Below are positions 22,093 through 41,383 of a DNA stretch of 60,564 bases, in pieces. Positions within the stretch are counted from its first letter, which is position 1, and each line of letters begins with the position of its first letter. The notes beneath the pieces are model-generated. The model had not been told where the DNA came from. It did not search any database and was given only the letters and a program-made list of their open reading frames with translations. The translations under genes and the position numbers were made by a program. This stretch comes from Roseofilum acuticapitatum BLCC-M154 (GTDB taxonomy: Bacteria > Cyanobacteriota > Cyanobacteriia > Cyanobacteriales > Desertifilaceae): assembly GCF_030068475.1 (NCBI RefSeq), contig NZ_JAQOSP010000059.1, positions 1 to 60,564 on the forward strand. Direction: 5' to 3'.

Positions 22093-23010
22093 ATGAATAC
22101 CAAAAAAGTTTTGTTTATCATCTCAGCAGGACACTCTGGCTCTAGCCTTCTTTCCGTCATTCTGGGGAGTCATCCTCAGTGCTTTTCTGCTGGAGAATTT
22201 GGAAATCTGCCTAACCGCTACAGAAACGGAGCTTTCCTAGACTGTATTAACCGTAATTCAGATTTTTGGGAAGAAACCTTTGGCAAAGAAGGTATAAAGC
22301 AACTCTCTATTGGCTTAGGGGACACTCGTGCAACACCCTATATTCCTTTAAAAATAGAAAAAAGAGTTCGAGAATTCTTAGGCAACGACCAAGTCTTTAA
22401 TCCCTATAGCTTAATGTTTTCTAAACTTAATGAAGAAGTAATAATCGATGCCACTAAATTTTACCCCTTTGTGGAAAAGAAGCTTAAGGCTAGAGAATTT
22501 AGATCTGGGGAAGTTGAAGCCTATTTATTACATTTAGTTAGAGATGGAAGAGCAGTCCTTAATTCTTTCCTACGCAGATTCCAAGATATGGACGTTGTAG
22601 ACTTTACTGAGGGTTGGGTACAAAAGACGAAGGGAAGGCAGGCTTATTTTCATTCATTTAAAGAAGATAAAAAAATAGAAATTGCCTATGAAGACTTGGC
22701 CAGTCAACCACACCAAACCATTCAAACCATTTGCCAATGGATTGGCATAGAATTTATAGAGGATATGCTAGAGTACTGGAAATACGATCACCATGACATT
22801 TCTGGCAACGATGGAACTTACTCTTTAATTAGACGCTACCAAGGGAAAGAAATACTAGATAAAGTGCGTGAAGTTCATGGAGAGTATTACGAAAAACGAG
22901 ATTTATCAATTAAATTAGATTTACGCTGGAAAAAAGAGCTATCACCAGAGAACTTAGAAATATTCAACCGTATTGCTGGAGCAGTTAACCAACCCTATGA
23001 GTACAATTGA
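22093..23010 (+). CDS. Sulfotransferase (paralogue 1 of a tandem pair)
   Basis: The 305-residue protein has the PAPS 5'-phosphosulfate-binding loop SAGHSGSSLL at residues 11-20 and the 3'-phosphate motif LVRDGRAVLNSF near 148-159. Family length is normal. It should transfer sulfate from PAPS to an acceptor hydroxyl, most likely a polysaccharide given the neighbours. It is AT-rich compared with the housekeeping genes. The next gene is a clear paralogue about 300 bases downstream. Confidence 0.88.
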   Translation: MNTKKVLFIISAGHSGSSLLSVILGSHPQCFSAGEFGNLPNRYRNGAFLDCINRNSDFWEETFGKEGIKQLSIGLGDTRATPYIPLKIEKRVREFLGNDQVFNPYSLMFSKLNEEVIIDATKFYPFVEKKLKAREFRSGEVEAYLLHLVRDGRAVLNSFLRRFQDMDVVDFTEGWVQKTKGRQAYFHSFKEDKKIEIAYEDLASQPHQTIQTICQWIGIEFIEDMLEYWKYDHHDISGNDGTYSLIRRYQGKEILDKVREVHGEYYEKRDLSIKLDLRWKKELSPENLEIFNRIAGAVNQPYEYN

Positions 23011-23326
23011 GCAAAGAGGATGAGAAGGTAATTAAATCATGAACCTTATAGATATAAGGGTAAGGTCTACTGATGAAAGTTTGCTTTCTTTTTCCCCAAA
23101 TATCTTTGTTTAGAGATATTTTTGAATAACTCTTGTACCCTCTCATATTAAGTGAGGAATGAAGCAATCATCAATATTTTTGTGATATCAAAAATAAAGT
23201 TTATCATCGCTTAACAGAGTGAATCTATGGATTAAGTGATCACCCTTAATTATTGACAATTATAAATAAACATGATAACCTAAAGGAGGAAAATATATAG
23301 TACAAAATAATATAAAATTGTCATTT
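23011..23326. other. AT-rich gap between the two sulfotransferase genes
   Basis: No gene is seen in these 316 bases. The only notable site is a strong ribosome-binding sequence AAAGGAGG at 23282-23289, which is too far (about 37 bases) from the ATG at 23327 to serve it directly. It lies seven bases before an in-frame ATA codon. Confidence 0.6.
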
Positions 23327-24256
23327 ATGATCAAAAAAATAGATAGAAGAAATAAAGTTGTTTTTGTAATAAGTATGGGTCGCTCAGGATCAACCTTAGT
23401 TGAATTGATGATTGGCAGTCACCCAGATGCGTTTTCATTAGGTGAAATCAGCAAGCTTCCTCAGATGGTACAAAAAGGAAGAGACTTTTGGTATCCTGAA
23501 GATAGTACCTTTTGGCTAGATAATTTTACAAAGGCAGAATTAAAGCAATTTGCAGCAGGAATGAGCAATCACAGATTGCATCGATATATTCCTTTAAAAC
23601 TTGAACGCCTAGTTCGAGAATGGTTAGGGAATGACGAAATTCTTAATCCCTATACTATACTTTTTTCTAAAACTAAACAATCTATTCTGACTGATTCTAG
23701 CAAGGAAGTGAGTTGGATCTCCAATAAATTGAAGGCTAGGGAATTTAGGCAAAATAAAATTGATGCTTACCTCTTATATAATGTACGAGATGGTCGAGCA
23801 GTTATTAACTCCTATCTCCGGTTTAAGAAAGACTCCATAGAAAACCTCAGTCATCAATGGGTTAATCTTTTTAAAGAGCAAAGTGAATTTTACAATAATT
23901 TTTCAGATGATAGAAAGTTAGCAATTCGCTATGAAGAAATGGCCACCAATCCTCACAAAGTGTTGCAACATATATGCCATTGGTTAGATATTGAGTTTGT
24001 CCCGGATATGATCGAATACTGGAAGCACGATCATCATCATGTTGTTGGCAGTCGAGGAGCAAATGCTTTAATTGCAAAATACAAGGGGAAAAAACAAAAA
24101 AACATGGAAAGTCATGGTCAATACTATCAAGACCCAGAATTTAAAATCAAGCTAGACATGCGATGGAAGCAAGAGTTATCACCAGAAAATTTACAAGTGT
24201 TTAATCAGATTGCTGGAGAACTTAATAAACCTTATGAATGGAACTTAGACATATAA
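23327..24256 (+). CDS. Sulfotransferase (paralogue 2 of a tandem pair)
   Basis: The ATG at 23327 gives 309 residues starting MIKKIDRRNKVVF; the reading frame stays open upstream. The PAPS loop SMGRSGSTLVELM and the 3'-phosphate motif NVRDGRAVINSYL match the first paralogue. The two proteins are collinear along their whole length (compare YIPLK.ER.VREWLGND, ARK.REFR and the C-terminal LDMRWKQELSPENL). Roles are likely similar but on different positions or sugars. It converges on the adenylation-protein gene with only 14 bases between stop codons. Confidence 0.87.
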   Translation: MIKKIDRRNKVVFVISMGRSGSTLVELMIGSHPDAFSLGEISKLPQMVQKGRDFWYPEDSTFWLDNFTKAELKQFAAGMSNHRLHRYIPLKLERLVREWLGNDEILNPYTILFSKTKQSILTDSSKEVSWISNKLKAREFRQNKIDAYLLYNVRDGRAVINSYLRFKKDSIENLSHQWVNLFKEQSEFYNNFSDDRKLAIRYEEMATNPHKVLQHICHWLDIEFVPDMIEYWKHDHHHVVGSRGANALIAKYKGKKQKNMESHGQYYQDPEFKIKLDMRWKQELSPENLQVFNQIAGELNKPYEWNLDI

Positions 24257-24270
24257 GTAATGACTAAGTT

Positions 24271-26943
24271 TTAATTCAAGTCTGATCTTGCGTTCTGGAG
24301 GCACTGGTTCAACTTTTGGGCCAGCTCAAGTACATTAGGGTAATCCATAAAAGAGCCATGGTTGCCTGGTACATCATAAACTTCTACACCAACAGAAGTC
24401 ATTTTTCTCCAACCTAGTAGTGGATCAAGTTTCCATCCTTCTGGTATGGGTCGTCCTAACCTGGAGCGAAATAGTGTAATTTTGCCATCATAGATGGTAG
24501 GAGTATAGCGGCTTTTTGCAGCTCTATTGACTTTCCGAATAAAATGACTGGTTTGAATCACAATATTTGTGCCATCATCTTTAGGCAACCAGTCTTCAGA
24601 AGGAAGTTGGTCGAAAGCCTTAGAAGATGAAGCCATACCCTTCATACGATCTTGCCAACGTTCAACAAGATACTCAAAACCTTGTTGAGAAAATCTTCTC
24701 CAATGCCGAGCGAGTCGTTCATAGGGTGAAAGAGGTGTGGTGTGAATACGTTCAAGAGCATAGGGGCTATGGCTATCAAGAATGACAAGCAGAGCAATTT
24801 CCTGGCCTTGTTGTCTGAGTTGTTGTGCCATTTCAAAAGCTACTAGACCACCAAAAGAGTAACCTCCAATCAAGTAAGGACCTTGAGCTTGCAATGCTTG
24901 CATTGTTTGAATATTACGAGCAGCTATAGCTTCAATAGTAGTTAAAGGTTGGGTTTTGCCATCAAGACCTTGTGCTTGTAAACCATATAACGGTTGATGC
25001 AAACCTAATTCAATTGCTAAGTTGCTATAATTAAGAACATTTCCTCCTATCCCATGACTAACAAAGAAGGGAGGATTATCGCCATTGGGCTGAATTGGAA
25101 CTAACGATGACCAGGCATCAGTGAAGCGATCGCTTTGCAATATTTCTGCTATTTCTTTGATCGTTGGTGCTTTCATCAGTAAAGCCAGAGGAAGCTTCAC
25201 CCCCAAGGTTTGTTCAATTTCAGAGAAAATTTGGGCAGCTAATAGGGAATGTCCGCCAATTTCAAAGAAATGATCGCAAATCCCAATAGGCTTTTGCTCC
25301 AACCATTTTTCCCAAATTTCTACCAATTGGCCTTCAATTTCGTTGCTAGGAGGGATAAACTGCTGAGTTAATTCTAAGTTATCGCGGCTTGGTTCTGGCA
25401 AAGCACGACGATCTAATTTACCATTTGGTGTTAGAGGTAGAGCATCTAAGAACATGAAATGGGCAGGTATCATATAGTCAGGGAGCTTGCCTTGAATCTC
25501 ATGTCGTAATTCTTCCTTTAAAGAAGAGTGAACAGCCATGGTAAGGCCAGATTTGGGGATTAAATAGGCAACCAGTTGAGTTTCTCCTTGAAGAGTTTCA
25601 TGGGCAGAAACAACAGATTGTTTAATCTGGGGATGATTTTCTAGAACAGCTTCAATCTCACCAGTTTCGACTCGCATTCCACGGATTTTAACTTGAAAAT
25701 CTACTCGCCCAAGAATTTCTAAACCACCGCTTTCTAAAATACGAGCCACATCCCCAGAGCGAAAAAGCCGATTAAAGGGATCTTCTGAGAAAGGATTAGA
25801 AATAAATTTGGCCTCATTATCTTGGGGGCGGTTGAGATAGCCTCGTGCCAGATTTTTTCCAGAAATCGCCAATTCCCCAATTTCACCCATAGGTAGAAGA
25901 TTAAGGTTTTCATCCACCACGTGAATACAATTGTGATCGTAAAGTTTCCCCACAACCGGTACATAACCAGAATCTCGTTCAAAGTCTTCAGGGACACAAT
26001 TGGCACAAACTCCTAGAGTTTCTGTCTGACCATAAAGATTAAAAACTTGTGGTTGTTTGTTTATCGGAAATTGACGGCGAACTTTTTTCAGGAGAGGACA
26101 AGGTAAAAGACCACCTGAAAAGACAAGAAACCGCAACTGACTAGAGTGGAGCAAATTTTGCTTTTCGAGAGGAAGAGTGTCTAAAGATTGAATCCCGTAG
26201 CGCCAAACTGACGCAACTGTATCAAATACAGTTACCTTTTTATCTATGATGAATTGAAACAACTGGAGTGGATTTTTAATGTATTCATCAGTGGCAACAA
26301 TAACTTTTGCTCCTTTACATAAGGGAAATAGGAGTTGACGTAAAGACGAAGAAAACGAGAAGGAAGCAGTATGTAAGTAGTAGTCTTGTTCTGTAATAGG
26401 GAAAACATCTGTTAGTCCCTTCAGGTAATAGCTAACATTTTCCTGAGTAATTTGTACTCCCTTGGGTTTACCGGTTGATCCTGATGTGTAGATAATGTAA
26501 GCCAGGTTATCGGGTTGAACAGTTCTTAAGGGATTATCCTGTGGATAGGATCTCAAAAGAGAACGATCTGTATCTAAATTTATTATTTTTCCCAAATAAC
26601 TAGGAAACCCCTCTCGTAAATGTTCTTGGGTAAGTAACCAAGAAATTTCTGTTTCCTGAAGAATAAATTCCGAGCGTTCTTTAGGATATTTCGGATCGAG
26701 TGGAATATAAGCTCCTCCTGCTTTCCAAATCCCTAAAATGCCTATAATTAACTCCAAAGAGCGTTCGGCACAGATGCCGACACGGACTTCTGGTTTTACC
26801 CCTAAGCTTTGTAAATAATGTGCCAGTTGATTCACTTGGTAATTGAGTTGCTCATATGTTAACTGCACATCATTACATTCGAGGGCGATCGCATTGGGGC
26901 TTTGCTGGACTTGCTCTTCCCATAAACTTTGAAATAGTTTCAT
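24271..26943 (-). CDS. Single-module A-T-TE synthetase (adenylation, carrier, thioesterase)
   Basis: The 890-residue protein has an adenylation domain (about 1-515), a carrier domain (about 530-605; DHFFEIGGHSL, Ser566 as phosphopantetheine site) and a thioesterase (about 620-885; GGYSFGGL, Ser696). Adenylation cores are visible: YTSGSTGKPKGV (152-163), NLYGQTET (302-309), RSGDVAR (395-401) and NGKLDRRAL (507-515). There is no condensation domain. The A4 core reads FSSS where amino-acid-activating domains have FDxS, so the Asp that binds the alpha-amino group is replaced by Ser198. The substrate is therefore probably not a normal alpha-amino acid. It closes an operon with an MBOAT and an SGNH-like gene, which suggests acyl activation for polysaccharide decoration. 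Confidence 0.9.
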   Translation of the reverse strand: MKLFQSLWEEQVQQSPNAIALECNDVQLTYEQLNYQVNQLAHYLQSLGVKPEVRVGICAERSLELIIGILGIWKAGGAYIPLDPKYPKERSEFILQETEISWLLTQEHLREGFPSYLGKIINLDTDRSLLRSYPQDNPLRTVQPDNLAYIIYTSGSTGKPKGVQITQENVSYYLKGLTDVFPITEQDYYLHTASFSFSSSLRQLLFPLCKGAKVIVATDEYIKNPLQLFQFIIDKKVTVFDTVASVWRYGIQSLDTLPLEKQNLLHSSQLRFLVFSGGLLPCPLLKKVRRQFPINKQPQVFNLYGQTETLGVCANCVPEDFERDSGYVPVVGKLYDHNCIHVVDENLNLLPMGEIGELAISGKNLARGYLNRPQDNEAKFISNPFSEDPFNRLFRSGDVARILESGGLEILGRVDFQVKIRGMRVETGEIEAVLENHPQIKQSVVSAHETLQGETQLVAYLIPKSGLTMAVHSSLKEELRHEIQGKLPDYMIPAHFMFLDALPLTPNGKLDRRALPEPSRDNLELTQQFIPPSNEIEGQLVEIWEKWLEQKPIGICDHFFEIGGHSLLAAQIFSEIEQTLGVKLPLALLMKAPTIKEIAEILQSDRFTDAWSSLVPIQPNGDNPPFFVSHGIGGNVLNYSNLAIELGLHQPLYGLQAQGLDGKTQPLTTIEAIAARNIQTMQALQAQGPYLIGGYSFGGLVAFEMAQQLRQQGQEIALLVILDSHSPYALERIHTTPLSPYERLARHWRRFSQQGFEYLVERWQDRMKGMASSSKAFDQLPSEDWLPKDDGTNIVIQTSHFIRKVNRAAKSRYTPTIYDGKITLFRSRLGRPIPEGWKLDPLLGWRKMTSVGVEVYDVPGNHGSFMDYPNVLELAQKLNQCLQNARSDLN

Positions 26944-27025
26944 AGTAATTTTACTCCATAGATAGATATATAATAGCTTATAGCCACGGTTTTCTCTTCT
27001 TTAAATTGAAATGAGTCGTATTTTG

Positions 27026-28141
27026 CTATCGCTTTAGTCCTTCTAACATTGTCACGACATCTGGATTGTCCTTCCTCCAGATATTTCTTTGTTTACGAAT
27101 GTCTTCCAAATGCTCTTCAATATTCTCTTGAGCAATCATAATACCAAAATCTTCCGGCACTATTTCTTGATTATACTGTAAAATCCGATTGAGAATCAAG
27201 TCTCCAACGTGCATTGTAAAATGAGAACTATCCCTGTATTTAGTCATTTGATCGGTGATGAATTCCGTAGTTATACTGTTATAGCCAGAAAAGTCCCAAA
27301 CTGGGAGTATATTAACAATCTCTCGCTTCCCTTGTTCTATAACTGCTTCACTACCTGACATATACATAGCTTCAAATTGAGTAACGTGAGGTGGTGTAAT
27401 AAAGGCTATCAAATTCAGGTTATTTTCTCGACATAAATCAACAATAATACTGAGATTTTCTAAAGCAAATGGAAATATTTTATCCTTTGGATTATTAATT
27501 ATTCCTGGAAGCCAAGAAGTAAACTTCACATTCCTATATTTCACATAGTCAGTATCGCGAACGCCTTTAGAGTTATAGTATTCGTAATCTGGTTTGTCTA
27601 AATTAGCTTTAATAGATTCAAGACTTTTACTAAACGTATCCCAAGAAAAATTAATTTCTAGAGATTCTGATAACGGCAAACCTTGTTGTTGCAACCTATC
27701 TTCTTTAAAACCGGTTTTCCTTAAATAGGGATCTTCTAGAAGCCATAAATCTATGCCTAGAATAACGACTTGAATATTTTCTTGTGTTTGAATAGCATAT
27801 TCCAAATAACGTCTTTGCTCATAAAACGTCATTCCTTGCATAGCTAAATTATAAACAGGTTGATATGTTTGTAATGCTGGATGCTCTACATCAAAGGCTG
27901 TTTCTACGCGAGATGCCCCTAAAAATATGGTTTTAGCATCTTGACGAGTTAGGTCTACTGCCTTATATAATCTAGTGTTATCTACAGTTGCAGGCTTAGA
28001 CTGATTAATTCCTGGAATAACTAGGATCTTGATAATGCCGAAAGGATCAATAATTGCATTAAAGAGGGCAACTAGACACGATCCGCTTGCTGCTACTGAC
28101 AACAAGATCAGAGTAAAACTACGATAAGGCTTCATCTTCAC
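27026..28141 (-). CDS. Membrane-anchored SGNH/DltD/AlgX-like protein, partner of MBOAT
   Basis: The 371-residue protein has one N-terminal membrane anchor (FTLILLSVAASGSCLVALFN) and an extracytoplasmic domain. TIFLGASRVETAFD (Ser77) resembles the first SGNH block, and YRDSSHFTMHVGDLIL (Asp304, His307) resembles the last, giving a possible Ser-Asp-His triad. Proteins of this kind accompany MBOAT acyltransferases in alginate (AlgJ/AlgX) and teichoic acid (DltD) modification and place the acyl group on the exported polymer. Its start lies one base past the MBOAT stop, so the two are almost certainly co-translated. Confidence 0.78.
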   Translation of the reverse strand: MKMKPYRSFTLILLSVAASGSCLVALFNAIIDPFGIIKILVIPGINQSKPATVDNTRLYKAVDLTRQDAKTIFLGASRVETAFDVEHPALQTYQPVYNLAMQGMTFYEQRRYLEYAIQTQENIQVVILGIDLWLLEDPYLRKTGFKEDRLQQQGLPLSESLEINFSWDTFSKSLESIKANLDKPDYEYYNSKGVRDTDYVKYRNVKFTSWLPGIINNPKDKIFPFALENLSIIVDLCRENNLNLIAFITPPHVTQFEAMYMSGSEAVIEQGKREIVNILPVWDFSGYNSITTEFITDQMTKYRDSSHFTMHVGDLILNRILQYNQEIVPEDFGIMIAQENIEEHLEDIRKQRNIWRKDNPDVVTMLEGLKR

Positions 28142-28142
28142 C

Positions 28143-29630
28143 TCAGAATTGAAAATATAAGAACTCGCTGACTTGATTCAAGGAGAGTAAACACACAAAA
28201 ACCATCGTACCCGCTCCAACTGCCCACCACCATTTAGGTTGAAACTTTTCCATTATTTCTTGGGTATTTGGACACCAAATTACCAGTGCAAGTAAGGCGA
28301 TAATGGTTCCCAAATTGATGCCTAAAGTTGTAGCATCGGTTCCTGGAAGATAGGGTAGTGCTGATAGCACTTCTTGTCCCTTGAATTCTACACCCAAAGG
28401 AGTGAGCCAAGATAAAAGTGACTCAAACTTACCGGGTAAAACAATACCTTTCATTCCAGTAACTGATTGAATCATGAAGGCAGCATCTTGAAAGCTCGTC
28501 GATCGAAATAAGATCCAACTCATCACCACAGCAAAAAAGGTAATGAACCATGCAAGAAACCAAGGTAATTTAATACGCAGTCGTTGCCATTGCCGGTCTA
28601 TAACGAGGTATAAACCGTGAAGTCCTCCCCAGACCACAAATGTCCAACCTGCACCATGCCAAAGTCCTCCTAAGAACATAGTAATCATTAAATTCAAATT
28701 TCGCCTTAGTTCTCCTTTACGGTTTCCTCCTAGTGGAATATACAGATAATCCCGGAGAAAGTTTGAGAGGGTAATATGCCACCTGCGCCAAAAATCAGCA
28801 ATGGAGGTTGCTTTGTAGGGAGAATCAAAGTTAATCGGCAATTCAATATTAAACATCCATCCCAAGCCGATCGCCATATCTGAGTAGCCGGAAAAGTCGA
28901 AATACAGTTGTAGCGTATAGCATAATGCTCCTACCCAGGCTTCTACAAAACTCACCTGGCTTGCATGATCGAATACGTCTGCCACCCAAGGGGAAAGACG
29001 GTCTGCAATGAGCATTTTTTTACTCAAGCCCAAGGTGAACAGGGTTAGTCCTCTGGCAAAGTTGCGATCGGAGAAAATAAATTTACGCTTCTGCCAAAAT
29101 TGTGGGATCAGTTCATCATGACGGAGAATCGGGCCAGCAATGAGTTGAGGGAAAAAAGACACAAATAAACTGTATTCAAGAACGCCGTATTTTTTGGTTT
29201 CCCCACGATAGGCATCAACGAGATAAGCAATTTGGGTAAAGGTATAAAAGGAAATGGCTAGGGGCAGGACAATGTTGGGCACTGGAAGATCGGTATTCAA
29301 GATGCCATTCATCGATTGAGCTAAAAATCCTGCGTATTTGTAGTATCCGATAAATCCTAAGTTGATACAGACACCACTGATTAATAAGAGTTTAGCCTGT
29401 TGACTTCCATGCTCTGTTCTTGATAGAGTTCTACCGATGAAAAAGTTAGTGAGAATGGAAATTACCAGTAGCGGCAAATAGGCTACATTCCAGTAGGCAT
29501 AGAAAAAGAGGGAGGTAGCCACTAGCCAAATCATCGCTGCTAAAGTGAGTCGAAATTTAGCTAGACCAAAAAAAATAATTAAGGTAAGGGGTAAAAATAA
29601 GAGAATAAAGACGTGGGAATTAAATAGCAT
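28143..29630 (-). CDS. MBOAT-family O-acyltransferase (AlgI/DltB type)
   Basis: The 495-residue polytopic membrane protein has about ten hydrophobic segments. The MBOAT motifs are QLYFDFSGYSDMAIG, WRRWHITLSNFLRDYLYIPL (His285) and GGLWHGAGWTFVVWGGLHG (His325), the last carrying the essential histidine. Such proteins pass an activated acyl group across the membrane to an extracellular acceptor. Acetyl-CoA is the usual donor for AlgI-type members, but DltB-type members use a carrier-protein thioester. The adjacent A-T-TE gene makes the latter possible here. Confidence 0.93.
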   Translation of the reverse strand: MLFNSHVFILLFLPLTLIIFFGLAKFRLTLAAMIWLVATSLFFYAYWNVAYLPLLVISILTNFFIGRTLSRTEHGSQQAKLLLISGVCINLGFIGYYKYAGFLAQSMNGILNTDLPVPNIVLPLAISFYTFTQIAYLVDAYRGETKKYGVLEYSLFVSFFPQLIAGPILRHDELIPQFWQKRKFIFSDRNFARGLTLFTLGLSKKMLIADRLSPWVADVFDHASQVSFVEAWVGALCYTLQLYFDFSGYSDMAIGLGWMFNIELPINFDSPYKATSIADFWRRWHITLSNFLRDYLYIPLGGNRKGELRRNLNLMITMFLGGLWHGAGWTFVVWGGLHGLYLVIDRQWQRLRIKLPWFLAWFITFFAVVMSWILFRSTSFQDAAFMIQSVTGMKGIVLPGKFESLLSWLTPLGVEFKGQEVLSALPYLPGTDATTLGINLGTIIALLALVIWCPNTQEIMEKFQPKWWWAVGAGTMVFVCLLSLNQVSEFLYFQF

Positions 29631-30567: not shown

Positions 30568-31677
30568 TCAATGGTAGTTTAACCAAAGTTTAGCACTATT
30601 CTCCCAAGTTTCTTCTTGTGCAAGTTGCTGAAATTCTTGACGGATTTCTTCTAATCTATCCTGATTATTTAATAACTCTATAATTTTCATCGCTACCGCT
30701 TCTTGAGTCGTTTGCTTGTAAGGATTACCTGGTGCTTTCATGCAATAGTTCTTTTCACTCAGTGCCACATAATCAGTTGTGACGGGAACACAACCCACGG
30801 CAGCCGATTCCCGGACTGAAATACAATCTATTTCTTGGAAGGTACAGCCATAGTAATGAATCGATGCTGTGGATTTTTCTTGGATTAACTTTTCCACTCC
30901 GATTCTACCATGGTCAGTGACACCAGATTGGTTCATTAATGCTATCATTTTTTCTTTCCAGGCTTGAACTTCTGGTTTACTAAAATCATTGCCAGACCAA
31001 CCATAATATATATGTAGATGAGCTTCTGGAATTTCTTTCTTAATGATCGGCCAGCCATATTGCAACATTCTTTCCAATCCTCTAATATAATTGGATGCGT
31101 AAACCAATTTGTAAGGATCTTTATAACATTTACTATACTCAAAGTAAGATGGATCGACTCCATTCGGGATGATCGCGATCGTTGTTTCCTCTATTTCTGG
31201 TAATAAACTTCTGTGGTAAGCTGATTTGACAAACACGCAATCAAAATTCTTCAGTTTAGATTTAGTGACCTGATCGGGCTGCATGACTTCATGCAAATCT
31301 AACCAAATTCTCTTGGCTTTAGTTCGGGCATATAGTCGCCAAGGATAGCGCCAAATAATTAATATATCAAATTCATCGTATTGATTGAACTCAGAATAGT
31401 GGCGATACTCCACTCCATCATATATTCCGGCTTCTGTACCACAATTATTGTAAACAGTTACTGTATATCCTAATTTTACCCAAACTTTAGTTAGCTGTAT
31501 GATAGCAGTTTCCGATCCACCCAGACCCACTTTCAACGTCTCTGGAGTCCATACTCTTTGGGTTGCTCCAGTATAGTAAACAATAGACTTATTTGGCCAT
31601 ACTTTAGGTCTTAAGTACTGTCCGGTAAGTTTTATTTTTGACATGATATTACTTAGTGCTTGTTGATAAATCTTCAT
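30568..31677 (-). CDS. Glycosyltransferase, GT4-like (paralogue of 31.9 kb gene)
   Basis: The ATG at 31677 gives about 369 residues starting MKIYQQALSN, collinear with its divergent paralogue; an ATG three codons upstream is an alternative. SIVYYTGATQ, VGLGGSETAII (donor loop), AIIPNGVDPSYF and the C-terminal DCISVRESAAVGCVPVTTD, where the Glu of the EX7E-type motif lies, indicate a GT-B retaining enzyme. It starts the run of minus-strand genes leading to the A-T-TE protein, with 21 bases to the sulfotransferase start, and so is probably part of that operon. Confidence 0.82.
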   Translation of the reverse strand: MKIYQQALSNIMSKIKLTGQYLRPKVWPNKSIVYYTGATQRVWTPETLKVGLGGSETAIIQLTKVWVKLGYTVTVYNNCGTEAGIYDGVEYRHYSEFNQYDEFDILIIWRYPWRLYARTKAKRIWLDLHEVMQPDQVTKSKLKNFDCVFVKSAYHRSLLPEIEETTIAIIPNGVDPSYFEYSKCYKDPYKLVYASNYIRGLERMLQYGWPIIKKEIPEAHLHIYYGWSGNDFSKPEVQAWKEKMIALMNQSGVTDHGRIGVEKLIQEKSTASIHYYGCTFQEIDCISVRESAAVGCVPVTTDYVALSEKNYCMKAPGNPYKQTTQEAVAMKIIELLNNQDRLEEIRQEFQQLAQEETWENSAKLWLNYH

Positions 31678-31863
31678 AAAACACATACCTAGTCCATCCG
31701 TTGTGATATAGTTATGATATTAGCAAGTTCTGGTTCAACTGTCGGAAATGATTGACGCTTTTGACCATCTCTTAATCGACCATACCAATCATAAACGACC
31801 TGTCTATACTAGAGACAGAAAATAAAGAAATCTTCACTATCTCCATTATATAAAGCACAGCTC

Positions 31864-39325: not shown

Positions 39326-39418
39326 ATATTGTGCCCTCATCCCCCAACCCCTTCTCCCACAGGAGAAGGGGAGTAAAGTCCCTCTCCCGTGGGAGAGGGA
39401 TTTAGGGAGAGGGAATCT
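39326..39418. repeat. Double-hairpin dispersed repeat before dnaB
   Basis: Two hairpins lie in the rplI-dnaB gap: CCCCTTCTCCCACAGGAGAAGGGG-like and CCCTCTCCCGTGGGAGAGGG-like. The element is the reverse complement of the one found inside the dnaB intein at about 40978-41060, with few differences. Any dnaB promoter must sit in or next to it. Confidence 0.85.
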
Positions 39419-39481
39419 CATGCGAAAATAATATATATCCCGTATCCTTCCCATATCCGAGTCCCGTCCCCACACCTTCCC

Positions 39482-41383
39482 ATGGTTAGCGAGTCCAACC
39501 TTCCAGCCCTTCCCGGAACCCTACCGCCCCAAAATATCGAGGCAGAAGAATCCATCCTGGGCGGTATTTTGCTTGACCCAGAAGCCATTAATCGGGTAAT
39601 TGACATTCTCAGCCCGGAAGCCTTTTCCATTTCCGCACACCAAAAAATTTATCAAGCCACTCTCACCCTTCATAACAGTGGCAAACCCACGGACTTTATG
39701 ACCGTCAACAGTTGGCTCTCTGACCAGAATCTATTAGACAAAATTGGCGGTCAGAGCAAACTGGTACAACTGCTCGACCGTACCGTGAGCGCAGTGAACA
39801 TTGATGAGTATGCCAAACTCATCATGGACAAATATCTGCGCCGTAAACTGATTACCGCAGGTCATGAAATTGTGCAGTTGGGCTATGATACTGCCACGGA
39901 TATTAAACAAGTTCTCGACCAAGCCGAACAAAAAATCTTTAACCTGACCCAAGACCGGGTACAAAAAGGGCTGGTTTCTTTAGCGGAAACCTTAACCCAC
40001 ACCTACGAAGAAATCCAATCTCAAAGTACCGGAGAAATTTTACCGGGTCTTCCCTGCCAATTTTACGATCTTGATGCCATGACCGGGGGATTTCAGCGAT
40101 CGGATTTGATTATTATTGCTGGACGGCCGTCCATGGGCAAGACGAGTTTCGCGCTCAATATTGCTAATAATATTGCCCAATCAACTCACTTAGCCGCCGC
40201 AATTTTTAGTTTAGAAATGTCGAAAGAGCAATTAGCGCTGCGTCTGCTCTCTAGTGAAGCAACCATTGAAAGTAATCGTCTGCGATCGGGGCGGATTAGT
40301 CAAACGGAATGGGAGCCTTTAATTGAGGCGCAAACGAATTTGTCTGAGTTGCCGATTTATATTGATGATACGGCTAATACTACCGTGACGCAGATGCGAT
40401 CGCAAGTTCGCAGACTGCAAGCAGAACAAGGACAACTGGGATTAGTGTTGCTCGACTACCTGCAACTGATGGAAGGTAGCAGCGATAACCGGGTGCAAGA
40501 ACTCTCGAAAATTACTCGGCAACTCAAGGGACTGGCACGGGAGTTAAATGTGCCTGTTATTGCTTTATCTCAGCTCAGTCGGTCTGTAGAGTCACGTACA
40601 AATAAGCGCCCGATGATGTCCGATTTGAGGGAGTCAGGTTGTTTAACAGGAGATACTCTAATTCCCTTAGCTGATGAAGGGATTGAAGTTCCAATTCAAA
40701 ATTTACTCGGTCGCTCTAACTTTACGGTTTGGGCAGTCAATTTAGAGAATTTGAAAATTGAAAAAGCGATAGTGACTAAGGTCTTCTCAACAGGGATTAA
40801 GCCTGTTTTTAGGTTGACAACTGCTTTAGGACGTAAGATTCAAGCCACGGCGAATCATCCCTTTTTAACCATTGATGGATGGAAAAGACTGGATCAGTTG
40901 GACATAGGCTCTTATATTGCTCTACCTCGAATATTACCGAGTCTAAAACATTCATCTATGAGTGATAAACATCTAGCCCTCTCCCTATATCCCTCTCCCA
41001 CGGGAGAGGGACTTTCTCCCCTTCTCCTGCGGGAGAAGGGGTTGGGGGATGAGGGGCAATGGTCTACTTTAGCCAATAGTGAGATTTATTGGGATCGAGT
41101 AGTTTCTATAGAAGCTTGTGGAGAAGCAGAAGTTTATGATTTAACGGTTCCCGGTTATCACAATTTTGTGGCTAATAATATCGTTGTTCACAACAGCATT
41201 GAACAGGACGCGGATTTGGTGATTATGTTATACCGAGATGAGTATTATAATCCCGATACCCCCGATCGCGCGATCGCCGAAGTGATCATCACCAAACACC
41301 GCAACGGCCCTACCGGAGTCGTTAAGCTACTCTTTGACCCCGAATTTACCCGCTTCCGCAACCTCGCTAAACCGCAAAATTAA
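39482..41383 (+). CDS. dnaB: Replicative DNA helicase DnaB carrying a mini-intein
   Basis: The ATG at 39482 gives a 633-residue precursor starting MVSESNLPALPG. The N-terminal DnaG-contact domain starts at PPQNIEAEESILGG. The RecA-like domain has Walker A GRPSMGKTS and LVLLDYLQLM. The host sequence is broken after MSDLRESG by an intein (residues 387-571), and resumes with Ser in SIEQDADLVIMLYRDEYY. The mature helicase would be about 448 residues, which is normal. DnaB unwinds DNA at the replication fork. The conserved insertion site is that of other cyanobacterial DnaB inteins. Confidence 0.97.
   Translation: MVSESNLPALPGTLPPQNIEAEESILGGILLDPEAINRVIDILSPEAFSISAHQKIYQATLTLHNSGKPTDFMTVNSWLSDQNLLDKIGGQSKLVQLLDRTVSAVNIDEYAKLIMDKYLRRKLITAGHEIVQLGYDTATDIKQVLDQAEQKIFNLTQDRVQKGLVSLAETLTHTYEEIQSQSTGEILPGLPCQFYDLDAMTGGFQRSDLIIIAGRPSMGKTSFALNIANNIAQSTHLAAAIFSLEMSKEQLALRLLSSEATIESNRLRSGRISQTEWEPLIEAQTNLSELPIYIDDTANTTVTQMRSQVRRLQAEQGQLGLVLLDYLQLMEGSSDNRVQELSKITRQLKGLARELNVPVIALSQLSRSVESRTNKRPMMSDLRESGCLTGDTLIPLADEGIEVPIQNLLGRSNFTVWAVNLENLKIEKAIVTKVFSTGIKPVFRLTTALGRKIQATANHPFLTIDGWKRLDQLDIGSYIALPRILPSLKHSSMSDKHLALSLYPSPTGEGLSPLLLREKGLGDEGQWSTLANSEIYWDRVVSIEACGEAEVYDLTVPGYHNFVANNIVVHNSIEQDADLVIMLYRDEYYNPDTPDRAIAEVIITKHRNGPTGVVKLLFDPEFTRFRNLAKPQN
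40640..41194 (+). other. DnaB mini-intein without homing endonuclease, 185 residues
   Basis: Cys1 begins block A (CLTGDTLIPLADEG). Block B is TANHPFLTIDGWKRLD with the T-x-x-H pair. The C-terminal blocks read VYDLTVPGYHNFVANN and VVHN with penultimate His and final Asn, followed by Ser+1. All residues needed for protein splicing are present. No LAGLIDADG domain is seen. In its place lie about 50 residues, of which about 28 are encoded by the hairpin repeat at 40978-41060. Confidence 0.93.
40978..41060 (+). repeat. Hairpin repeat inserted in frame inside the DnaB intein
   Basis: The stretch starts CCCTCTCCCTATATCC and includes the perfect hairpin CCCTCTCCCACGGGAGAGGG and the second hairpin CCCCTTCTCCTGCGGGAGAAGGGG, ending GGGGGATGAGGGGCAA. 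It encodes roughly PSPTGEGLSPLLLREKGLGD. It is an inverted copy of the repeat 1.6 kb upstream in the rplI-dnaB gap and related to those at 9.4 and 51.1 kb. Confidence 0.9.

Follow-up and report, generated by a model that had tools for sequence, protein, structure and literature searches.

A nonribosomal peptide synthetase-like A-T-TE gene beside an MBOAT–SGNH pair in a cyanobacterial sulfated-polysaccharide locus: a possible acyl-decoration branch that resembles Dlt without belonging to it

Introduction

The described systems closest to the genes considered here are the Dlt system, the PatA–PatB and AlgI pairs of MBOAT and SGNH proteins, and the AT3 membrane acyltransferases. According to the portion of PMC12148441 available to us, the tyrosine of an FXYXXF motif carries the acyl group, DltB lacks this motif and relies on DltX, and the MBOAT–SGNH systems outside Dlt have no carrier protein and evidently use acyl-coenzyme A (acyl-CoA) as the donor. 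Such use of acyl-CoA by bacterial MBOAT–SGNH and AT3 systems outside Dlt limits the groups that are expected to be attached (accessible parts of PMC12148441 and PMC9558356). Here we describe a window of 60,564 nucleotides (the whole stretch of DNA that was analysed) from Roseofilum acuticapitatum BLCC-M154, contig NZ_JAQOSP010000059.1, in which three adjacent genes encode an MBOAT acyltransferase, a membrane-anchored SGNH-like protein and an enzyme with adenylation (A), carrier (T) and thioesterase (TE) domains, referred to below as A-T-TE. The best reading of this trio is a modular polysaccharide acylation fed by the A-T enzyme, which would work like Dlt without being a member of it.

Results

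The trio comprises the following genes:

24271–26943, minus strand: A-T-TE synthetase, 890 amino acids; Pfam AMP-binding, AMP-binding_C, PP-binding and Thioesterase
27026–28141, minus strand: SGNH-like protein, membrane-anchored, putative partner of the MBOAT protein, 371 amino acids; assigned by motifs, no Pfam family
28143–29630, minus strand: MBOAT acyltransferase, 495 amino acids; Pfam MBOAT

The original prediction placed these genes in this order on the minus strand, with gaps of 1 base between the MBOAT and SGNH genes and 82 bases between the SGNH and A-T-TE genes, and the open reading frames (ORFs), the Pfam matches and the intact motifs bear this out; all three genes are genuine and intact, and their arrangement is the one first described. 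The trio is not a product of chance, because the domain matches are strong, the ORFs are long and the order is conserved in other genomes.

The carrier motif of the A-T-TE enzyme, GGHSLL, is intact, with Ser566 as the carrier serine, as is the thioesterase motif GYSFGG (Ser696), for which LDSHSP and GNHGSF offer a candidate Asp and His, respectively. The A domain has the ten-residue code SSRDVSLGVK, in a position numbering that we take to be that of GrsA. Ser198 stands at the site of the Asp (D235) that holds the α-amino group, and Gln306 replaces the Pro of YGPTE, giving YGQTE; all 47 xxRD-code domains have a Gln at this place, and all four D235 controls have the Pro. Domains known to take hydroxy or keto acids have a residue that is small or hydrophobic instead of the amino-binding Asp, and in a keto-acid domain a conserved Pro is replaced (PMC11253843), which on our reading is the Pro of YGPTE. 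Both positions are replaced in the window domain and, because the Asp has become Ser and the Pro has become Gln, the domain is predicted to accept a non-amino acid (α-keto and α-hydroxy acids being candidates) rather than D-alanine. As a Ser at the Asp site is unlike the reported hydroxy- and keto-acid cases, the prediction extends to a non-amino acid and stops short of a proven substrate class. The unusual acyl group originally proposed is in keeping with an A domain of this kind. None of the codes SSRDLAMGIK, SSRDVAMGIK and SSRDVSLGVK occurred in a paper of our literature search for a substrate.

Two other codes recurred in the survey. SSRDLAMGIK is present at L098, L102, L104 and L106 (with one gapped position in L106), in Pseudomonadota, Bacteroidota, Acidobacteriota and Actinomycetota. 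Ten A domains with the code TARD[VI]GIG[HN]K form one clade (100/100), and the loci of this group that were viewed (L252, L253 and L254) have larger nonribosomal peptide synthetase (NRPS) genes or lie beside membrane or MFS-like genes.

The MBOAT protein has an intact WHGAG motif at residue 324, with His325 within WHG, and its C terminus is FLYFQF (residues 490–495), a motif of the acyl-shuttle type that includes Tyr492. FXYXXF formed the C-terminal end in 28 of the 29 MBOAT ORFs examined (some genes were fetched twice), the lone exception being a paralog within the same genome that ends in YIYFDF. The best solved relatives of the protein, by sequence, are DltB structures. The SGNH-like protein has a single N-terminal hydrophobic helix and intact LGASR and DSSH motifs, with Ser77, Asp304 and His307 as candidate catalytic residues; it matched no Pfam family at E ≤ 10 and no NCBIfam family at E ≤ 0.001. 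A fold model made from four sequences was of low confidence (mean predicted local distance difference test score, 57). The 50 Protein Data Bank matches listed for this model include numerous SGNH/GDSL hydrolases, as well as Campylobacter and Neisseria PatB, but not DltD, and no match reaches E ≤ 0.001. The motifs and this poor model weakly support an SGNH fold. Because the MBOAT protein has its own FLYFQF and the SGNH protein matches no DltD family, the two appear to file with the PatA/AlgI-type pairs rather than with DltB and DltD, and a close kinship with those two proteins is not supported. Two features of a PatA/AlgI-type pair are present: the MBOAT protein has the catalytic His and a C-terminal FXYXXF, and the SGNH protein encoded next to it, whose fold is weakly supported, is anchored in the membrane and has the Ser and His.

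These features also bear on whether the locus could be a true Dlt system, with DltA and DltC fused and D-alanine placed on a glycan. The reaction types would be the same, and the DltB model (158.5 bits; cut-off, 375) and two DltA models (295.3 and 271.7 bits; cut-offs, 476 and 559.85) do give matches, all below cut-off; this explanation has to contend with the absence of D235, the FXYXXF motif on the MBOAT protein itself, the absence of a DltD match and the extra thioesterase, and we consider it very improbable. Membership of Dlt was accordingly rejected: the amino-binding Asp is absent (Ser198, with Gln306 at the Pro of YGPTE), the carrier is fused between the A and TE domains, the MBOAT protein ends in FLYFQF, a motif that DltB lacks and DltX carries, and the SGNH protein has no DltD family match. 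That the A-T fusion and the extra thioesterase are foreign to classic Dlt had been recognized from the outset, and this view stands.

As a separate observation, Okeania (L091 3242–8469) and G590 (L215 5013–10588) have four tandem SGNH genes beside one MBOAT gene; several SGNH transferases may share a single membrane acyltransferase.

The genes surrounding the trio are the following:

22093–23010, plus strand: sulfotransferase STa, part of the polysaccharide locus; homologs in G005, G003 (5′-truncated), Okeania and G610
23318–24256, plus strand: sulfotransferase STb, convergent with the A-T-TE gene; 14 bases separate the stop codons
29635–30546, minus strand: sulfotransferase STc, 4 bases upstream of the MBOAT gene; also beside MBOAT in G005, G003 and Okeania
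30568–31686, minus strand: GT1, glycosyltransferase-like, 21 bases from STc; weak Pfam matches, below cut-offs

GT1, STc, MBOAT, SGNH and A-T-TE thus form a run of five genes on one strand, with gaps of 21, 4, 1 and 82 bases. No terminator-like site was found in the 82-base gap, and consensus promoter matches around the trio were no more frequent than in shuffled sequences. GT1 is kept in the matching loci of G005, G003, Okeania and G610. The trio belongs to a gene set for a probably sulfated sugar coat. A strict link between STb and A-T-TE, apparent in five loci, was rejected, as STb homologs (64–69% identity) are present in G001, G002 and G004, all of them genomes without a close A-T-TE. Further along the window, at 39389–41383, lies a DnaB helicase gene with an intein inside (Pfam Intein_splicing).

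Homologs of the SGNH protein were found in 16 genomes, its own included (59 relatives searched), at 19 loci, and an MBOAT gene adjoins the SGNH gene in 17 of these. In the sister species, G005, the same locus has the A-T-TE gene beside the MBOAT–SGNH pair, at 99% identity. The locus is also present in Okeania sp. SIO3I5, a member of another family, with identities of 55% for A-T-TE, 65% for MBOAT and about 49–51% for SGNH; it was held at the outset that the link would fail if an A-T-TE gene were never found beside these genes elsewhere, and the linkage does recur outside the genus. In Okeania (L091), GT1 is followed by STc, MBOAT, four SGNH genes, of which one is broken, and then STa, A-T-TE, u20865, u19699, u18782 and STb. 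In the stretch between the SGNH genes, the remnant of an MBOAT C terminus is followed by an SGNH gene that is intact, by an A-T-TE N-terminal remnant containing stops and by another MBOAT remnant. As this decayed copy has the order MBOAT, SGNH, A-T-TE, the unit once existed there too. A wider survey of 388 genomes of the order found an SGNH match at E ≤ 1e-88 in eight. The scan of genome contigs gives a lower bound, and more cases may exist.

The closest relative of the window A domain outside these loci, in G511, belongs to an A-T pair with the code SSRDVSIGVK, in which an AT3 domain (Pfam, 36.8 bits; cut-off, 31) replaces the thioesterase. A tree of A domains groups the sequences of the window, G005, Okeania and G511 in a clade (support 100/99) nested in a 31-row clade (100/100), elsewhere within which fall G453 and G484; these two share the A-T-AT3 architecture of G511 over its full length at 57% identity, with AT3 scores below the Pfam cut-off (27.7 and 20.8, respectively). 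With the fused AT3 domain as the query, matches were obtained in four of 340 genomes (G511, G453, G484 and G094), always in a long ORF. The G094 protein (L259 8382–10892) is a second kind of A-T-AT3 enzyme, having a different AMP-binding domain, a carrier (PP-binding, 20.5 bits; cut-off, 20.8) and an AT3-like domain in one ORF; this last domain has no Pfam AT3 match and was found by its likeness to G511. In the accessible part of PMC9833829, the R-X10-H motif of AT3 proteins is described as absolutely conserved, and the arginine of an RXXR motif lies at the 3′-phosphate of CoA in simulation. All four fused AT3-like domains have R-X10-H and none has RXXR after it; both motifs are present in the free AT3 protein of G530, whose gene lies 44 bases from an A-T-TE gene in a glycan locus that also encodes glycosyltransferase, PIG-L, SIS and methyltransferase proteins. 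Related A-T pairs fused to or beside AT3 membrane acyltransferases support a link between the A-T enzyme and membrane acylation.

Discussion

We propose an accessory acyl-decoration branch, in which the A-T-TE enzyme supplies an unusual acyl group to the MBOAT–SGNH pair for attachment to a sulfated glycan, and we regard this as an evenly balanced proposition. The A domain would activate a carboxylic acid that lacks an α-amino group, possibly an α-keto or α-hydroxy acid, and charge the fused carrier with it. The acyl group would then enter the MBOAT protein, either directly from the carrier or after transfer by the thioesterase to a soluble acceptor such as CoA, and be placed on Tyr492 of the C-terminal FLYFQF; outside the membrane, Ser77 of the SGNH protein would take it over and esterify the glycan. 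The relay from Tyr to Ser would follow that of PatA and PatB, being known for related proteins. The substrate, the role of the thioesterase, the hand-over from carrier to MBOAT and the glycan as acceptor are all inferred, the hand-over (direct or via a thioester made by the thioesterase) from the linkage and from the A-T-AT3 fusions. The trio pairs a membrane acylation machine of the standard kind with an enzyme of antibiotic type, which probably provides that machine with an unusual acid.

A number of observations weigh against such a shared reaction. The A-T-TE gene lies within 1.5 kb of the SGNH gene in two of the 19 loci (the window and G005), and eight other SGNH loci (L057 and L061–L067; 17 to 20 kb each) gave no A-T-TE match. 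It was present in the stretch fetched for three of the eight genomes with the closest SGNH proteins (G000, G005 and G582, the last being Okeania), and was not found in the 12 to 20 kb fetched from G003, G610, G590, G456 and G541. The linkage holds in G005 and Okeania; the matching loci of G003 and G610 have MBOAT and SGNH genes without A-T-TE. In G003 a GT61-like gene stands at the A-T-TE position, and no A-T-TE match was found genome-wide at E ≤ 1e-120. Because of these two loci, the A-T-TE gene is taken to be an accessory that the MBOAT and SGNH proteins do not need. The window, G005 and Okeania loci, moreover, share ancestry and so are not independent cases. Elsewhere, single-module xxRD A-T-TE genes occur in Wzx/Wzy-type polysaccharide loci of G445, G661 and a Nostoc (L095), where about 20 kb contained no homolog of the MBOAT gene, and those of G661 and the Nostoc belong to a separate A-domain lineage; in families f20 and f31, and in G016, G511, G453 and G484, the genes lie amid mostly housekeeping neighbours. 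Finally, both PatA-type MBOAT proteins and AT3 proteins are reportedly acyl-CoA users (PMC12148441 and PMC9558356, respectively, in the parts available), and Dlt offers no role for a thioesterase that follows the carrier.

Two side observations belong with these loci. The STa gene of G003 (L057 7155–7742) is cut at its 5′ end beside the replaced A-T-TE/STb stretch, and so marks a recombination site. In both the f20 genomes and G501 (L202 7115–7861; L210 7527–8273), the near neighbours of the SSRD A-T-TE gene include a creatininase-family gene, the Pfam run behind this call being on the L202 gene only.

Many of the same observations would be expected if the trio shared no reaction, the MBOAT–SGNH pair O-acetylating the glycan from acetyl-CoA, as in PatAB and alginate systems, and the A-T-TE enzyme acylating a cytoplasmic sugar nucleotide or a lipid-linked precursor by means of its thioesterase. 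MBOAT–SGNH pairs are common without A-T-TE, as the counts given above show, the G003 and G610 loci lack it, the Wzx/Wzy-type loci have it without MBOAT, and the MBOAT protein has a built-in FXYXXF as in acyl-CoA users. Such a division of labour explains neither why the decayed Okeania copy has its genes in the same order nor why sister A-T pairs are joined to AT3 domains devoid of RXXR. We consider it a serious possibility and the main rival, although an acylation shared by the trio is judged likelier than this or any other alternative. Some MBOAT gene was found elsewhere in the genome in all 13 genomes checked, so that action in trans is possible.

The housekeeping surroundings of several relatives, and the variable interval between STa and SGNH (G000 compared with G003), would also suit an enzyme that makes a free small molecule, such as a keto-acid product cyclised or dimerised by the thioesterase, and whose gene travels as a passenger with a surface-glycan locus of variable content; known A-T-TE enzymes of a single module, from fungi and bacteria, couple keto acids. 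The A-T-TE gene has, however, been retained in the locus in another family (Okeania), and AT3 takes the place of the thioesterase in sister proteins, and we find a passenger improbable, less so than a true Dlt system. At least three glycan genes were present at five of 15 xxRD A-T-TE loci, compared with two of 21 D235-bearing loci (these from one genus), a difference that is only suggestive, given the small numbers, the several near-copy loci and a reference set drawn partly from the positive loci.

Taken together, the evidence partly supports the original interpretation. It suggests that membrane acyl-attaching machines can be fed by a carrier and not only by CoA. More tentatively, and with the odds in our view against it, there may be a general route in cyanobacteria for the decoration of surface glycans, in which non-amino acids loaded by NRPS-type A-T pairs pass directly from the pantetheine arm into an adjacent MBOAT or a fused AT3 protein, so that acyl-CoA would not be the sole donor outside Dlt. 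Our literature search of open-licence PMC papers, within the portions of them that were available, gave no A-T pair tied to a PatA/AlgI-type MBOAT–SGNH pair or to an AT3 domain, and no system with an A-T pair, sulfotransferase and exopolysaccharide. If the proposal is true, an A-T enzyme tied to these machines by operon, neighbourhood and fusion would make the broad adenylation chemistry of NRPS enzymes available for decorating glycans, the question of the donor would be directly testable with single fusion proteins, and the surface glycans of cyanobacteria could be expected to carry a new acyl group.

Compared with known systems, the locus resembles Dlt (DltABCD and DltX) in having an A domain, a carrier, an MBOAT protein and an SGNH-like protein in one locus; it differs in the fused A-T pair followed by a thioesterase, the missing amino-binding Asp, the shuttle motif on the MBOAT protein rather than on DltX, and the absence of a DltD match. 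With the PatA–PatB and AlgI pairs it shares an MBOAT protein with the His and a C-terminal FXYXXF, encoded beside a membrane-anchored SGNH-like protein whose low-confidence model matches PatB among other SGNH folds, whereas those pairs, in the accessible part of PMC12148441, are described without a carrier and as using acyl-CoA, and here an A-T-TE gene joins the run. The AT3-like domains fused to sister A-T pairs have the R-X10-H of OafB and OatA (PMC9833829 and PMC9558356, parts available) and lack the RXXR implicated in CoA binding; the window itself has an MBOAT protein, not AT3. The synechan xss cluster of Synechocystis (PMC8205485) is likewise a cyanobacterial glycan locus with glycosyltransferases and sulfotransferases, but a text search of that paper finds no 'acyltransferase', 'MBOAT' or 'nonribosomal'. 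The domain order A-T-TE is that of the single-module NRPS-like enzymes, from which the window enzyme is set apart by SSRDVSLGVK with YGQTE and by its place beside an MBOAT–SGNH pair in a glycan locus.

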